A DNA stretch of 64,000 bases from positions 1 to 64,000 of the forward strand of contig NZ_JALVAO010000034.1 in assembly GCF_027011145.1 (NCBI RefSeq), written 5' to 3'. The DNA is from Thermococcus sp. (GTDB taxonomy: Archaea; Methanobacteriota_B; Thermococci; Thermococcales; Thermococcaceae). Below are positions 27,995 through 31,858 of the stretch, one piece after another. How positions within the stretch are numbered: the first letter of the stretch is position 1; each line of letters opens with the position of its first letter. The notes beneath the pieces were generated by a model. The model worked only from the letters and a program-made list of their open reading frames with translations. It was not told the DNA's origin and ran no database searches. The translations under genes and the position numbers were made by a program.

Positions 27995-28014
27995 ATTATC
28001 TTAGGGAGGATAAT
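27995..28014. promoter_or_regulatory. Inverted repeat overlapping start of first DUF234 ATPase gene
   Basis: ATTATC-N8-GATAAT is a perfect inverted repeat whose loop holds the ribosome binding site (gggagg) and whose right arm runs into the ATG at 28013. A TATA-like cttaaaag lies about 20 bases upstream. It could be an operator for autorepression or an mRNA hairpin hiding the start. The following paralogue has a similar GATAAT/ATTATC pair at its own start. Confidence 0.45.
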
Positions 28015-29374
28015 GTTTGTGAACCGAAAAGATGAGCTAGCGCTACTTGAGAAGTTGTATGGCTCGGGAAAGAAGGAGATCCTAATCATCTACGGGCGAA
28101 GGAGGGTGGGGAAGACTGAGCTCGTGAAGAGGTTCATTGGGAATAAACCGGCCATATATTTTCTCGCCGATAGGGACGGCCTGAAGGCCAACGCGAGGAG
28201 GTTCTACCTTGAGACCGCGGAAAAACTCGGCCTGCCTGCGGTGGAGGTGGACGACTTCAGAAAGGCCTTCGAGCTGATAAAACTCAAGGCCCCGGAAAGG
28301 CTCGTTGTGGTAATTGACGAGTTTTCCTACCTCATGCTGTCCGATAAAAACACACCGGCCGTTTTCCAGCACGTCGCTGACGAAATCCTTGACGACAGAT
28401 TTTTCCTTATACTCACTGGTTCCCTCATTGGCCTGATGGAAAGCCTAATGGGCTACAACAACCCCCTCTACGGCAGGAGAACCGCACAACTTAAGCTGAA
28501 GCCCCTTAACTTTTTCCATGTGGCGGAATACTTCAGGAATCGGCCACTGGAGACTGTGGTCAAGATTTACTCCGTAACGGGGGGAGTTCCAATGTACTTC
28601 CGCCTCTTCAGGGGCGAGAACTTCGAGAGAGAGCTCATGGAAACAGTGTTTTCGCCAATTTCAATACTATACGAGGAGCCCGAGTTCATTTTAAGGGAAG
28701 AACTCGGCGATGTTCACCGCTATTACCTGATTCTTGAGGCCCTCGCCAACGGAAGGCACAGGGTCAGCGAGATTGCCAACTTTGCGGGAATCGAGACAAA
28801 GGACATGCCCAAGTATCTGAGAACTCTGATTTCCCTGGAACTCGTGAGGCGGGAGGTGCCCGTAACGGAAAATGAGAGGAGCAAAAAGGCGCGCTATTAC
28901 ATTAACGACAACTTCTTCAACTTCTGGTTCCGCTTCGTGAAGCCCAACAAAGGGAGGATAGAGATTGGCACGTTTGAGATGGACTGGGAGGCTTTCAACA
29001 CCTATGTTGGGAAGGCTTTTGAAGGGATAGCGAGGCAGTTCTTGGTGGAGCTGAACAAAGCCGGAAAGTTACCCTTTGCACTTACAAAGATCGGAAGATG
29101 GTGGCATAAGAGGGAGGAGATTGACCTTGTTGCCTTGAATGAGCGGGAGAAAAAAGCCCTTTTCGTCGAGGTGAAGTGGAAAAGCCTTAGTGAAAGGGAA
29201 GCGAGGGGAATCTTGAAGGATTTGGAGAGGAAGGCTGAGCTTGTCGGACTTGAGGACTGGGAGGAGGACCATGGGCTGATTGCGAAAAAGGTTGAAGGAA
29301 AGGAAAGACTTAGGAAAGAGGGCTTTTTAGTCTGGGATTTGAGGGACTTCGAAGGGTGTGTAAAAAGACTATAA
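28013..29374 (+). CDS. Archaeal ATPase with winged helix and DUF234/PD-(D/E)XK-like end
   Basis: A 453-residue protein. Residues 1-200 are a STAND-like archaeal ATPase: IYGRRRVGKTELVKRF (about 25-40, Walker A), VVVIDEFSYLM near 103 (Walker B) and LTGSLIGLM. A winged helix follows (SEIANFAGIETKDMPKYL). The C-terminal DUF234 domain has EEIDLVALNEREKKALFVEVKWK, an acidic residue and an E-X-K pattern like PD-(D/E)XK nucleases. Members are abundant in Thermococcales, often near mobile genes, function unknown. A paralogue follows directly. Confidence 0.8.
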   Translation: MFVNRKDELALLEKLYGSGKKEILIIYGRRRVGKTELVKRFIGNKPAIYFLADRDGLKANARRFYLETAEKLGLPAVEVDDFRKAFELIKLKAPERLVVVIDEFSYLMLSDKNTPAVFQHVADEILDDRFFLILTGSLIGLMESLMGYNNPLYGRRTAQLKLKPLNFFHVAEYFRNRPLETVVKIYSVTGGVPMYFRLFRGENFERELMETVFSPISILYEEPEFILREELGDVHRYYLILEALANGRHRVSEIANFAGIETKDMPKYLRTLISLELVRREVPVTENERSKKARYYINDNFFNFWFRFVKPNKGRIEIGTFEMDWEAFNTYVGKAFEGIARQFLVELNKAGKLPFALTKIGRWWHKREEIDLVALNEREKKALFVEVKWKSLSEREARGILKDLERKAELVGLEDWEEDHGLIAKKVEGKERLRKEGFLVWDLRDFEGCVKRL

Positions 29375-29417
29375 CTTCAAAAGCCCCCCGCGTAAACCGT
29401 TTCCGAAATCGTTAAAA

Positions 29418-29452
29418 ATGATAATTTCTATTATAATAATGGTGATTATCAT
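29418..29452. promoter_or_regulatory. Inverted repeat around TATA of second DUF234 ATPase gene
   Basis: ATGATAAT (29418-29425) and ATTATCAT (29445-29452) form a perfect 8-base inverted repeat with a 19-base spacer that contains the TATA-like tattataata and ggtg. The right arm ends directly at the ATG. Same half-site (GATAAT/ATTATC) as at the paralogue upstream. Confidence 0.5.
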
Positions 29453-30835
29453 ATGTTCCCATTCATTGACAGGAGAGAGGAACTTAAGGCACTCAGAGAG
29501 CGCTTAACGGGTAAAAGCTTTGAGCTCATAATAGTCTATGGGCGGAGGAGAGTGGGAAAGACCCGTCTCGTTCTCGAAGCCGTTAAAGATTTGCCCCACG
29601 TTTATTACCTTGCAGTCGAAGGCGATAACCTAAGACACTTTCGAGAAACCGCGGAGCGGGTGTTTCCCGAGGTTAGATACTCCAGGGAAGACTGGGAAGG
29701 AACCCTCCACGCTTTGAAGGGAAAGGTTATCGTCATTGACGAGTTCCCGAACCTGATAAAGGAAAACCCCCAAATTCTTTCGCTATTTCAGAGGGTCATT
29801 GACCTCGACTTATTGAATTCTAGCACCAAGCTCGTTCTCCTCGGTTCCTCTGTGAGCATGATGACGGAAAAGGTGCTGAGCTACAAGAGTCCCCTCTACG
29901 GGAGAAGGACGGGCTCAATGAAACTAAGACCAATGGGCTTCTTTTCCCTTAGGGAGTTTTTTCCGAAGGCAGGCTGGAAGGAGCTCGTTGAGGTTTATGG
30001 CATGACCGATGGGATTCCTTTCTACATAACGCAGGTTAAGCTTCCCTTCTGGGAGTGGCTGGAGAAAGAGCTGTCCAGTCCGGTGAGCTTCTTCAGGGAC
30101 GAGGTGGACTTCCTACTCAAGTACGAGTTCAGCGAGGTTAGCACCTACAAGAGAATCCTTGAGGCGATAGCCCTTGGAAAGACAACTCCAAAGGAGATAA
30201 GGGACTTTACCGGTCTGAGGCATTCCGACATCAGCCCCTACCTAAGGAACCTCATCGAGACCGGGCTGATAGTAAGAGAGGTGCCGGTTACAGAAAAGAG
30301 GACCTCAAAGCGGGGACGCTACTACGTGGCCGACAACTTTCTAGCTTTCTGGTTCCGCTTTATCTTCCCGAATCTCTCGCGCATAGAGGAGGGCACATTC
30401 AGCGCCGAGGAGATTAGGGAAACCTACGACCACTACCTGGGTTTTGTTTTTGAAAAGGTGGCGAGACAGTTTTTAATAGAGCTTAACAAAGCCTATAAAC
30501 TCCCCTTCAGGTTCACTAAAATAGGAAGATGGTGGCACAAAAAAGAGGAGATTGATTTGCTCGCTTTGAACGAGGGGGAGAAGAAAGCACTCTTCGTCGA
30601 GGTTAAGTGGAAAAGCCTTAGTGAAAGGGAAGCGAGGGGAATCTTGAAGGACCTGGAGAGGAAAGCTGAATTGGTTGGATTGGAGGAGTGGGAGAAGTTT
30701 TACGGGCTTGTGGCGAGAAGTATTGAGGATAAAGCGCGGTTGAGGGAGGAGGGCTTCTTGGTATGGAACCTTGAGGACTTTGAACTCATAAAAAACAACC
30801 GCTGGGAGAATATAAAGAAACTTCAAGAGCTCTGA
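29453..30835 (+). CDS. Archaeal ATPase with winged helix and DUF234/PD-(D/E)XK-like end (paralogue)
   Basis: A 460-residue paralogue of the preceding gene with the same order: IVYGRRRVGKTRLVLEAV (Walker A), VIVIDEFPNLI (Walker B), winged helix (PKEIRDFTGLRHSDISPYL) and DUF234 end with EEIDLLALNEGEKKALFVEVKWK. The last third is nearly identical to its neighbour, including 47 identical bases (29174-29220 and 30605-30651), while the ATPase parts differ much more. This looks like gene conversion or a recent partial duplication. Function unknown. Confidence 0.8.
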   Translation: MFPFIDRREELKALRERLTGKSFELIIVYGRRRVGKTRLVLEAVKDLPHVYYLAVEGDNLRHFRETAERVFPEVRYSREDWEGTLHALKGKVIVIDEFPNLIKENPQILSLFQRVIDLDLLNSSTKLVLLGSSVSMMTEKVLSYKSPLYGRRTGSMKLRPMGFFSLREFFPKAGWKELVEVYGMTDGIPFYITQVKLPFWEWLEKELSSPVSFFRDEVDFLLKYEFSEVSTYKRILEAIALGKTTPKEIRDFTGLRHSDISPYLRNLIETGLIVREVPVTEKRTSKRGRYYVADNFLAFWFRFIFPNLSRIEEGTFSAEEIRETYDHYLGFVFEKVARQFLIELNKAYKLPFRFTKIGRWWHKKEEIDLLALNEGEKKALFVEVKWKSLSEREARGILKDLERKAELVGLEEWEKFYGLVARSIEDKARLREEGFLVWNLEDFELIKNNRWENIKKLQEL

Positions 30836-30838
30836 GGC

Positions 30839-30979
30839 TCACCACTCGTCCTCATCTTCCCAGTCCTCTTCCTCCCACTCCTCTTCCCAGTCCTCGTCGT
30901 CCCACTCCTCGAGCTCGAACTCCTCATCTAAAAACTCCTCTTCCTCATCGACGACCTTCTTTTTCTTGGGTGGCTCCAT
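30839..30979 (-). CDS. 46-residue acidic, tryptophan-rich protein
   Basis: ATG 30979 follows a strong gaggggagggt and opens a 46-codon frame. The protein begins MEPPKKKKVVDEEEEF and continues with repeats of acidic residues broken by five tryptophans (EEW, DEDW, EEEW, EEDW, DEDEW at the C-terminus). Composition is extreme: four lysines near the start, then almost only D, E and W. Not a shadow of the neighbouring gene, as it lies 3 bases beyond its stop codon on the other strand. Function unknown; an acidic tail may bind basic proteins or mimic nucleic acid. Confidence 0.75.
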   Translation of the reverse strand: MEPPKKKKVVDEEEEFLDEEFELEEWDDEDWEEEWEEEDWEDEDEW

Positions 30980-31102
30980 ACCCTCCCCTCGTCCGGAGTT
31001 TGAACTGAAGGCCTATAAACTTTATTCCAAAAATTTAAAAGGCCAAGTCCTTCGGGCGAGGCCTCGGAAAAGGTTTATATCCCAAGGTGAGAAGTGAAAA
31101 CC

Positions 31103-31858
31103 ATGAGGGTAGCGATTGTAACGAGCAACGCCCGGGTCTACTACACGGCCACGAAGGTGCTGAAGGAGTATAAAATCCCGTTCCTGAGCTTACGCGTCGG
31201 CGAGAGGGTTCCCTACGACGTTGAGGTCGTCCTGACAGGCGAGAAGGATAAGGTTGACTTCCCGGTCAAGGTCGTAGTTCATGACGAAAACTTCATAGAC
31301 GAGCTCCTCGCGAAGCTCGAAGGCAGGGAGAGGTTTAAGAACGTCTTCATAGCGATAGACCCCGGTGCGAGGCCGGGCTTGAGCGTCGTGGCCGACGGGA
31401 GGGTTATAGAGGTTCACAGGCTTAAGAATCCAAGGGACGTTGGAATCATCGTCGATTTGCTTGAGAAGTATCCTAGAGCTAAGATAAAAATCGGGCACGG
31501 CGCGAAGAGGCACAGGACGATGACGCTGAAGGCCCTTGGAGAATTGCTAGGCTACGATTACCCCATCATAGTCGTGAACGAGTTCAGGACAACGCCCAAG
31601 GTCGGGGGAATTGAGAGCTCATCGGTGGTTGACATCGTGGCTTCAATCAACATAGGCCTTAGGGCCGGGCAGGAGACGACCATTGGGGAACTGCTCGACG
31701 TGAGGGAGCCTACCAAGAGGGAAATCGAGGATATAAAGCGGAGGAGCCGGGAACTCAGCGGGAACATAACGATTCCATCCTACCTCGCAAGGGAGGTTGC
31801 CCTCGGAAACCTGACCCTTGAGGAGGCTATTGAAATTCACAGGGGGCGTTCAAGATGA
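31103..31858 (+). CDS. Predicted RNase H/RuvC-fold protein
   Basis: A 251-residue protein. The centre has [21 protein letters not shown] (in two parts; about residues 86-105), the strand-turn-strand with Asp typical of RNase H/RuvC-like nucleases, followed by [16 protein letters not shown] and a later [15 protein letters not shown] with a second acidic site. Nuclease activity is inferred only. ATG 31103 is used; GTG 31094 has better spacing from aaggtgag. It ends in a 4-base overlap with cdc48, so both are translated together. Confidence 0.65.

Follow-up and report, generated by a model that had tools for sequence, protein, structure and literature searches.

A conserved small-protein gene of Thermococcus encoding an acidic, tryptophan-rich product and belonging to a Thermococcales-wide family

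Results

Features of the locus

The window analysed here, a 64,000-nucleotide stretch of a Thermococcus sp. contig (NZ_JALVAO010000034.1), carries on its minus strand a short open reading frame (ORF) with an ATG start, which would encode the protein MEPPKKKKVVDEEEEFLDEEFELEEWDDEDWEEEWEEEDWEDEDEW. This ORF was assigned to family A of a family with members of three kinds (A, B and C), and the features of the locus are as follows.

30839..30979, minus strand: small-protein gene, family A member, 46 aa, with a lysine head, an acidic tryptophan-rich body and a C-terminal tryptophan (sequence, relatives and pN/pS)
30956..30979, minus strand: codons 1-8, the M-E-P-P-K-K-K-K head, kept in families A and B (alignments)
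30842..30949, minus strand: codons 11-46, the acidic body, in which 27 of 36 residues are D or E and which holds all five tryptophans (sequence)
30981..30988, minus strand: Shine-Dalgarno-like GGGGAGGG (sequence)
31014..31019, minus strand: TATA box TTTATA, with GGAATAAAG before it, BRE-like by eye (sequence; TTTATA is common in family A)
31106..31858, plus strand: divergent neighbour, 250 aa, a synteny anchor only and outside the system (library searches, order-wide matches)

The protein, of 6.0 kDa, has 8 D and 20 E (28 acidic residues) against 4 K, a net charge of -24 and a computed pI of 4.05; its acidic body offers no site for trypsin. Lysines occupy positions 5-8 and tryptophans positions 26, 31, 35, 40 and 46, the last of them closing a C-terminal DEDEW, exactly as the initial annotation had described (46 residues, a lysine cluster, five tryptophans, the ending DEDEW). 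Its view of the composition as extreme was also borne out: among the 563 window ORFs of at least 30 aa, the protein ranked first by D+E fraction (0.61; next, 0.30) and second by tryptophan fraction (0.109; top, 0.125). The ribosome binding site claimed there is present, as AGGGGAGGGT lies directly 5' of the ATG, but the word "strong" was slightly generous, since just 2 nt separate the GGAGG core from the ATG (7 nt if the upstream GAGG serves). The TTTATA begins 40 nt upstream of the ATG; of the 55 family A loci, 33 have the same element at -39/-40 and 22 do not.

Downstream, 3 bp separate the gene from the end of a convergent ATPase_2/DUF234 gene (29453-30835, plus strand; Pfam); upstream, it diverges from the gene at 31106-31858. 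The latter overlaps the start of cdc48 (ATGA), and its protein had no Pfam or NCBIfam match and one weak PHROGs match (E 0.004).

Selection at the codon level

For 108 equal-length family A gene pairs, which are not independent of one another, pS was 0.58, pN was 0.12 and pN/pS was 0.20, while the same pairs gave pN/pS of 2.6 in the +1 frame, 1.36 in the +2 frame and 2.2 in antisense. Purifying selection thus acts at the codon level and in the ORF's own frame only. Taken with the conserved frame in relatives and with the TTTATA at -39/-40, this marks the ORF as more than chance. A low-complexity ORF born by chance could have the codon composition seen here (GAA, GAG, GAC and TGG), but the protein is preserved while its codons drift, the promoter is conserved among family A loci, the family is spread through the order, and no Rfam family was found over 30500-31500 at E up to 0.1; we regard such an origin as exceedingly improbable. 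The initial annotation had named the lack of a conserved frame in relatives and of a translation signal as what would speak against it; the frame proved to be conserved and the Shine-Dalgarno-like site is there. We conclude that 30839-30979 is a real gene for a small protein and represents, in this genome, a Thermococcales-wide family, and we infer that it is translated.

Distribution in the Thermococcales

A direct protein search, which low complexity blunts, matched only 26 of 94 Thermococcales genomes. For this reason the divergent neighbour, matched in 91 of the 94, was used as an anchor and the ORFs upstream of it were read. In a census compiled by hand from the search outputs, an acidic lysine-headed ORF stood upstream of the anchor gene in 60 of 94 genomes (61 with G081), and at least one member of family A, B or C was found in 88 of 94 (89 with G088). 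Members were present in all 74 genomes with completeness of 90% or more and contamination of 5% or less; the five genomes without a member were 73-86% complete. The homologue search in Thermococcales proposed by the initial annotation recovered a conserved frame in relatives. Family A is represented by 55 loci in 54 genomes, two of the loci being in G013. Family B was found in 25 genomes (26 matches at E 6e-8 or better), with a further one in G041, and at least 12 genomes held both A and B; a profile search did not find family B in the window's own genome.

Genome G067 was counted through a divergent ORF (MPPKRR...) alone and lies outside the 74 good genomes, and G042 has an ORF resembling it, but family B is present there too. 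These two ORFs at the family A locus (L109 and L111) have the MPPKRR head, few tryptophans and no C-terminal tryptophan, possibly by drift or replacement of the tryptophan pattern.

At the level of the phylum, the family A profile matched 51 of 115 genomes, all within the taxonomic family of the window. No member was seen outside the Thermococcales, an absence that is weakly tested because the phylum search adds only 21 genomes to the order search and the profile, being of limited reach, misses the members of genera g3 (which we take to be Pyrococcus) and g6.

Conserved features and the tryptophan motif

Members share a head of the PPKKK or QPKKK type, about 60% D+E and a tryptophan every 4-6 residues. 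Over the 55 family A loci the length was 44-63 aa, D+E was 0.55-0.67 and each protein had 4-8 tryptophans, most commonly spaced by 5, 6 and 4 residues; the final residue was W in 54 loci and C once. An alignment of 28 sequences of family A type showed M1, P4 and W40 to be invariant and P3, K5, K6 and W35 to be kept in at least 90%. D and E interchange and length drifts in family A, but charge density, tryptophan spacing and the C-terminal tryptophan persist. The lysines, which the initial annotation had likened to a linker, are by these alignments a conserved head: M-x-P-P-K-K is among the most constant parts and forms the N-terminus, not a joint. Family B follows the pattern MY(Y)PPKKKV.PKV-EEEEEEF[DE]PL..VEEAYE-acidic-W. 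An alignment of 13 B-locus members shows D or E as the last residue in most, H or Y in two and W in the two from g4/g5. Family C, from g3, comprises acidic tryptophan-rich ORFs that begin MQP[KR][KR]K... and end in a C-terminal W.

The codon pattern for [DE]W[DE]3W occurred at 108 places in 69 of the 94 genomes, and about 104 of the 108 (counted by hand, most by coordinates) lay in family members, so that the signature is nearly private to the family; the reversed control occurred at one place in the 94 genomes. The four places outside the family (in G009, G019, G025 and G055) were set aside as chance or, in G025, as belonging to a longer frame, by appearance a TetR-type regulator. No larger protein carrying the motif as a partner-revealing tail was seen in the 94 genomes. 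Weak matches of the family profiles in long frames, in the sample read, fell in long proteins through lysine or acidic patches and were rejected; three g3 loci and one g1 locus among them lay, by inspection, in a ScpA-like protein.

An AlphaFold2 model of the window protein, run with nine relatives, had a mean pLDDT of 62 and a pTM of 0.24, with one long helix of low confidence at 5-37. The model thus gives no confident fold for the protein on its own, and proves neither disorder nor a helix.

Gene contexts

Members occurred in four gene contexts, with moeA/cdc48, with an MFS transporter gene, with a PiT transporter gene and with the gene for Nip7. Family A is divergent from the operon with cdc48, and moeA lies downstream on the same strand in 41 of its 55 loci; at the other 14 there was none in the available stretch, often about 1.2 kb. 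Family B stands upstream of an MFS transporter gene in the ten loci with the flank read, and five family A loci of g5 are followed by a gene for a PiT phosphate transporter, one more locus being cut by a contig end (a Pfam check was made on one locus in each case). The Nip7 gene was matched in 8 of 9 g3 genomes, and all eight carry a family C ORF whose end overlaps the Nip7 start; the identity of Nip7 was taken from PDB 2p38 ("Protein involved in ribosomal biogenesis", E 5e-94). Among 81 non-g3 genomes matched, the 22 loci read had no acidic ORF upstream of nip7. At the g3 loci (L215-L222) the DEW-stop of family C lies over MSGE of Nip7, an overlap that suggests translational coupling in that genus only.

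With a same-strand gene so often downstream (moeA, MFS, PiT or nip7, the last with overlapping ends), we considered that the product might be a leader or regulatory peptide, with that gene under the control of its translation. The next gene is convergent in the window (29453-30835, plus strand), 14 family A loci show no moeA in the stretch available, and the protein retains its sequence beside downstream genes that are unrelated to one another. A constant co-directional gene was not found, the downstream gene differing in families B and C and in family A of g5, and we consider a leader peptide very unlikely. The cdc48 linkage is likewise lost in g5 and g3, and comparison of the four contexts pointed to no partner through constant neighbours. 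The initial annotation had held that no neighbour explains the protein, and this agrees with neighbours that differ between genera while the protein stays. Since the context changes and the protein persists, a member probably acts in trans.

Two tandem ATPase_2/DUF234 genes (28013-30835, plus strand) stand between moeA and the small gene in the window, and in many relatives moeA adjoins the small gene. At L029, in the sister genome G050, all that remains in the interval is sequence resembling the ATPase gene's end, which suggests insertion or loss.

Relation to known proteins

The window protein had no match in NCBIfam or PHROGs, and its best Pfam match (E 0.22, 12.2 bits) was below the cut-off of 24.8. 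Family B had no Pfam match in any of 13 members and no PHROGs match for the one member searched, and one family C member likewise had no PHROGs match. No convincing PDB relative was found for the window protein (E up to 10) or for the family A profile (E up to 1), whose only match, centrin (E 0.08), was judged to be chance.

DSS1/Sem1, a eukaryotic 26S proteasome subunit and BRCA2 partner, has the same layout as the family, being small (70 aa) and acidic with F and then spaced W. An assembly factor of this type would be an acidic W/F peptide stabilising a larger machine, for instance the Cdc48/proteasome system or an OB-fold protein such as RPA, and the divergence of family A from the cdc48 operon is in keeping with it. 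In comparisons with DSS1 (the sequence used was identical to that in the PDB), the window protein beat 300 of 300 full shuffles (Z 4.1; seven other members, 0.04 to 3.9) and 198 of 200 shuffles with the first ten residues kept (Z 2.8). With the head kept, the 55 family A loci had a median Z of 1.4 (-0.7 to 4.7), against 0.02 (-1.6 to 2.0) in the reversed-DSS1 control, but three B members reached only 0.6 to 1.3 and two C members 0.15 and -0.9. By these scores, the likeness of family A to DSS1 may go slightly beyond what composition alone would give, and that of B and C does not appear to. DSS1 was not matched by the family A profile or by the window protein, though the PDB holds 12 distinct DSS1 sequences. 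It is without the PPKKKK head and the C-terminal W of the family, and the segment that follows its acidic region (NQLRAELEKHGYKM in human) has no counterpart in family A, which ends acidic + W (once C). The resemblance is thus mostly compositional and we do not call the family a DSS1; with the cdc48 linkage lost in two genera as well, a DSS1/Sem1-like assembly factor appears unlikely.

Other likenesses were drawn with known systems. Eukaryotic acidic histone chaperone segments have aromatic caps, and the family, set beside them by composition only, resembles them in having aromatic anchors along an acidic stretch, by which a basic histone surface could be covered; unlike them, it is a free-standing protein of 46 aa here. 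The acidic C-terminal tip of bacterial SSB is an acidic run with a terminal aromatic residue bearing a free carboxylate, as at the ends of families A and C, but the family is a separate protein and not the tail of an OB-fold protein, and family B lacks an aromatic W at its end. TIP, a PCNA-binding protein of 64 aa reported only from Thermococcales, for which PMC4929162 describes a putative partial PH-like domain and proposes a PIP motif, is similar by description only: a very small Thermococcales protein, which in the case of TIP binds a larger partner.

Discussion

In this study, a small acidic protein was found in every good Thermococcales genome searched, in an order that is among the best-studied hyperthermophiles, yet no name or family model was found for it. 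Small proteins of acidic-aromatic type have been described in eukaryotes; a free-standing family of such proteins throughout an archaeal order appears to be new. No description of it was found in open-access PMC literature on this and neighbouring topics. According to PMC2718504, proteomics of T. gammatolerans may have overlooked small proteins, and PMC4247193 lists abundant "hypothetical" transcripts by TK gene numbers.

From composition, the initial annotation had suggested a binding tail or a nucleic acid mimic, a fair inference for a polyanion with regularly spaced tryptophans. Our own tentative proposal, which we hold at somewhat less than even odds, is that the product is a largely disordered polyanion whose aromatic stickers bind, in trans, basic nucleic-acid-binding proteins. 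Evenly spaced tryptophans and a short lysine head would complete such a molecule, with carboxylates replacing phosphates and tryptophans replacing stacking bases on the positively charged surfaces of its targets, and in families A and C the free C-terminal W would cap the tail. Clients might thereby be kept soluble, exchangeable or off nucleic acid, in a manner comparable to eukaryotic acidic histone or ribosomal-protein chaperones. Charge density and tryptophan spacing, with the C-terminal W in A and C, are kept despite D/E interchange and length drift, as would be expected of a polyanion with stickers. Family B, which does not end in W, counts against this explanation, as does the failure of constant neighbours, or of a larger protein bearing the motif, to point to a partner, and the low-confidence helix at 5-37 leaves disorder unproven. 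Caution on mimicry also comes from DSS1, which is reported as intrinsically disordered and is held to be an allosteric effector, not a DNA mimic, on BRCA2 (PMC8881015).

Candidate clients would be histones, Alba, RPA, ribosomal proteins and partners of Nip7, for which the overlap with nip7 in g3 and, in the window, the divergent cdc48 operon are no more than hints. Histones, Alba and RPA are not confined to the Thermococcales, which speaks against them as clients of a family seen only there. A more specific reading, a Thermococcales-specific acidic-aromatic chromatin chaperone, minimal and free-standing, that would cap histones (or Alba) and allow the passage of polymerases, is decidedly unlikely. 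If this is true, archaea would have in it a first histone-chaperone-like protein, with an origin independent of the eukaryotic ones. Thermococcales have histones (PMC7325993), and no homologs of histone chaperones or remodelers had been identified in archaea according to PMC7990501, so that a chaperone reading would matter. A nucleic-acid mimic or chaperone of this kind would show how archaea with histones and no known histone chaperones or remodelers (PMC7990501) handle basic nucleic-acid-binding proteins.

The extreme charge and aromatic spacing would also suit a buffer for cations, metals or polyamines, or a condensate-forming polyampholyte (lysine head, acidic tryptophan body), without a single protein client, and the copies next to transporter genes (PiT in g5, MFS for family B) are consistent with such a role. 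These transporter contexts are not common to family C and to most family A loci, and the strict tryptophan spacing and C-terminal W imply that more than charge is under selection; a buffer or condensate former is accordingly improbable to us.

Minor variation was observed at individual loci. In G015 the family A locus (L163, 1150-1400) holds an in-frame relative, REPPRKKKREDEFEEELEEEVWELEDEDWDWEEEEGW, without an ATG at the expected place, which may reflect a rare start or decay; the family B copy of this genome is intact. The leader of the window gene is without a GC-rich hairpin. A short hairpin of this kind was present directly 5' of the Shine-Dalgarno sequence in 40 of the 99 distinct leaders (6.6% after mononucleotide shuffling), among them all 19 labelled B by the script (L165-L189) and those of g4, g5 and g6 members such as L090, L099, L104 and L113. 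It took forms such as GCCCC-loop-GGGGC and CCCCTC-loop-GAGGGG, with changes on both arms.
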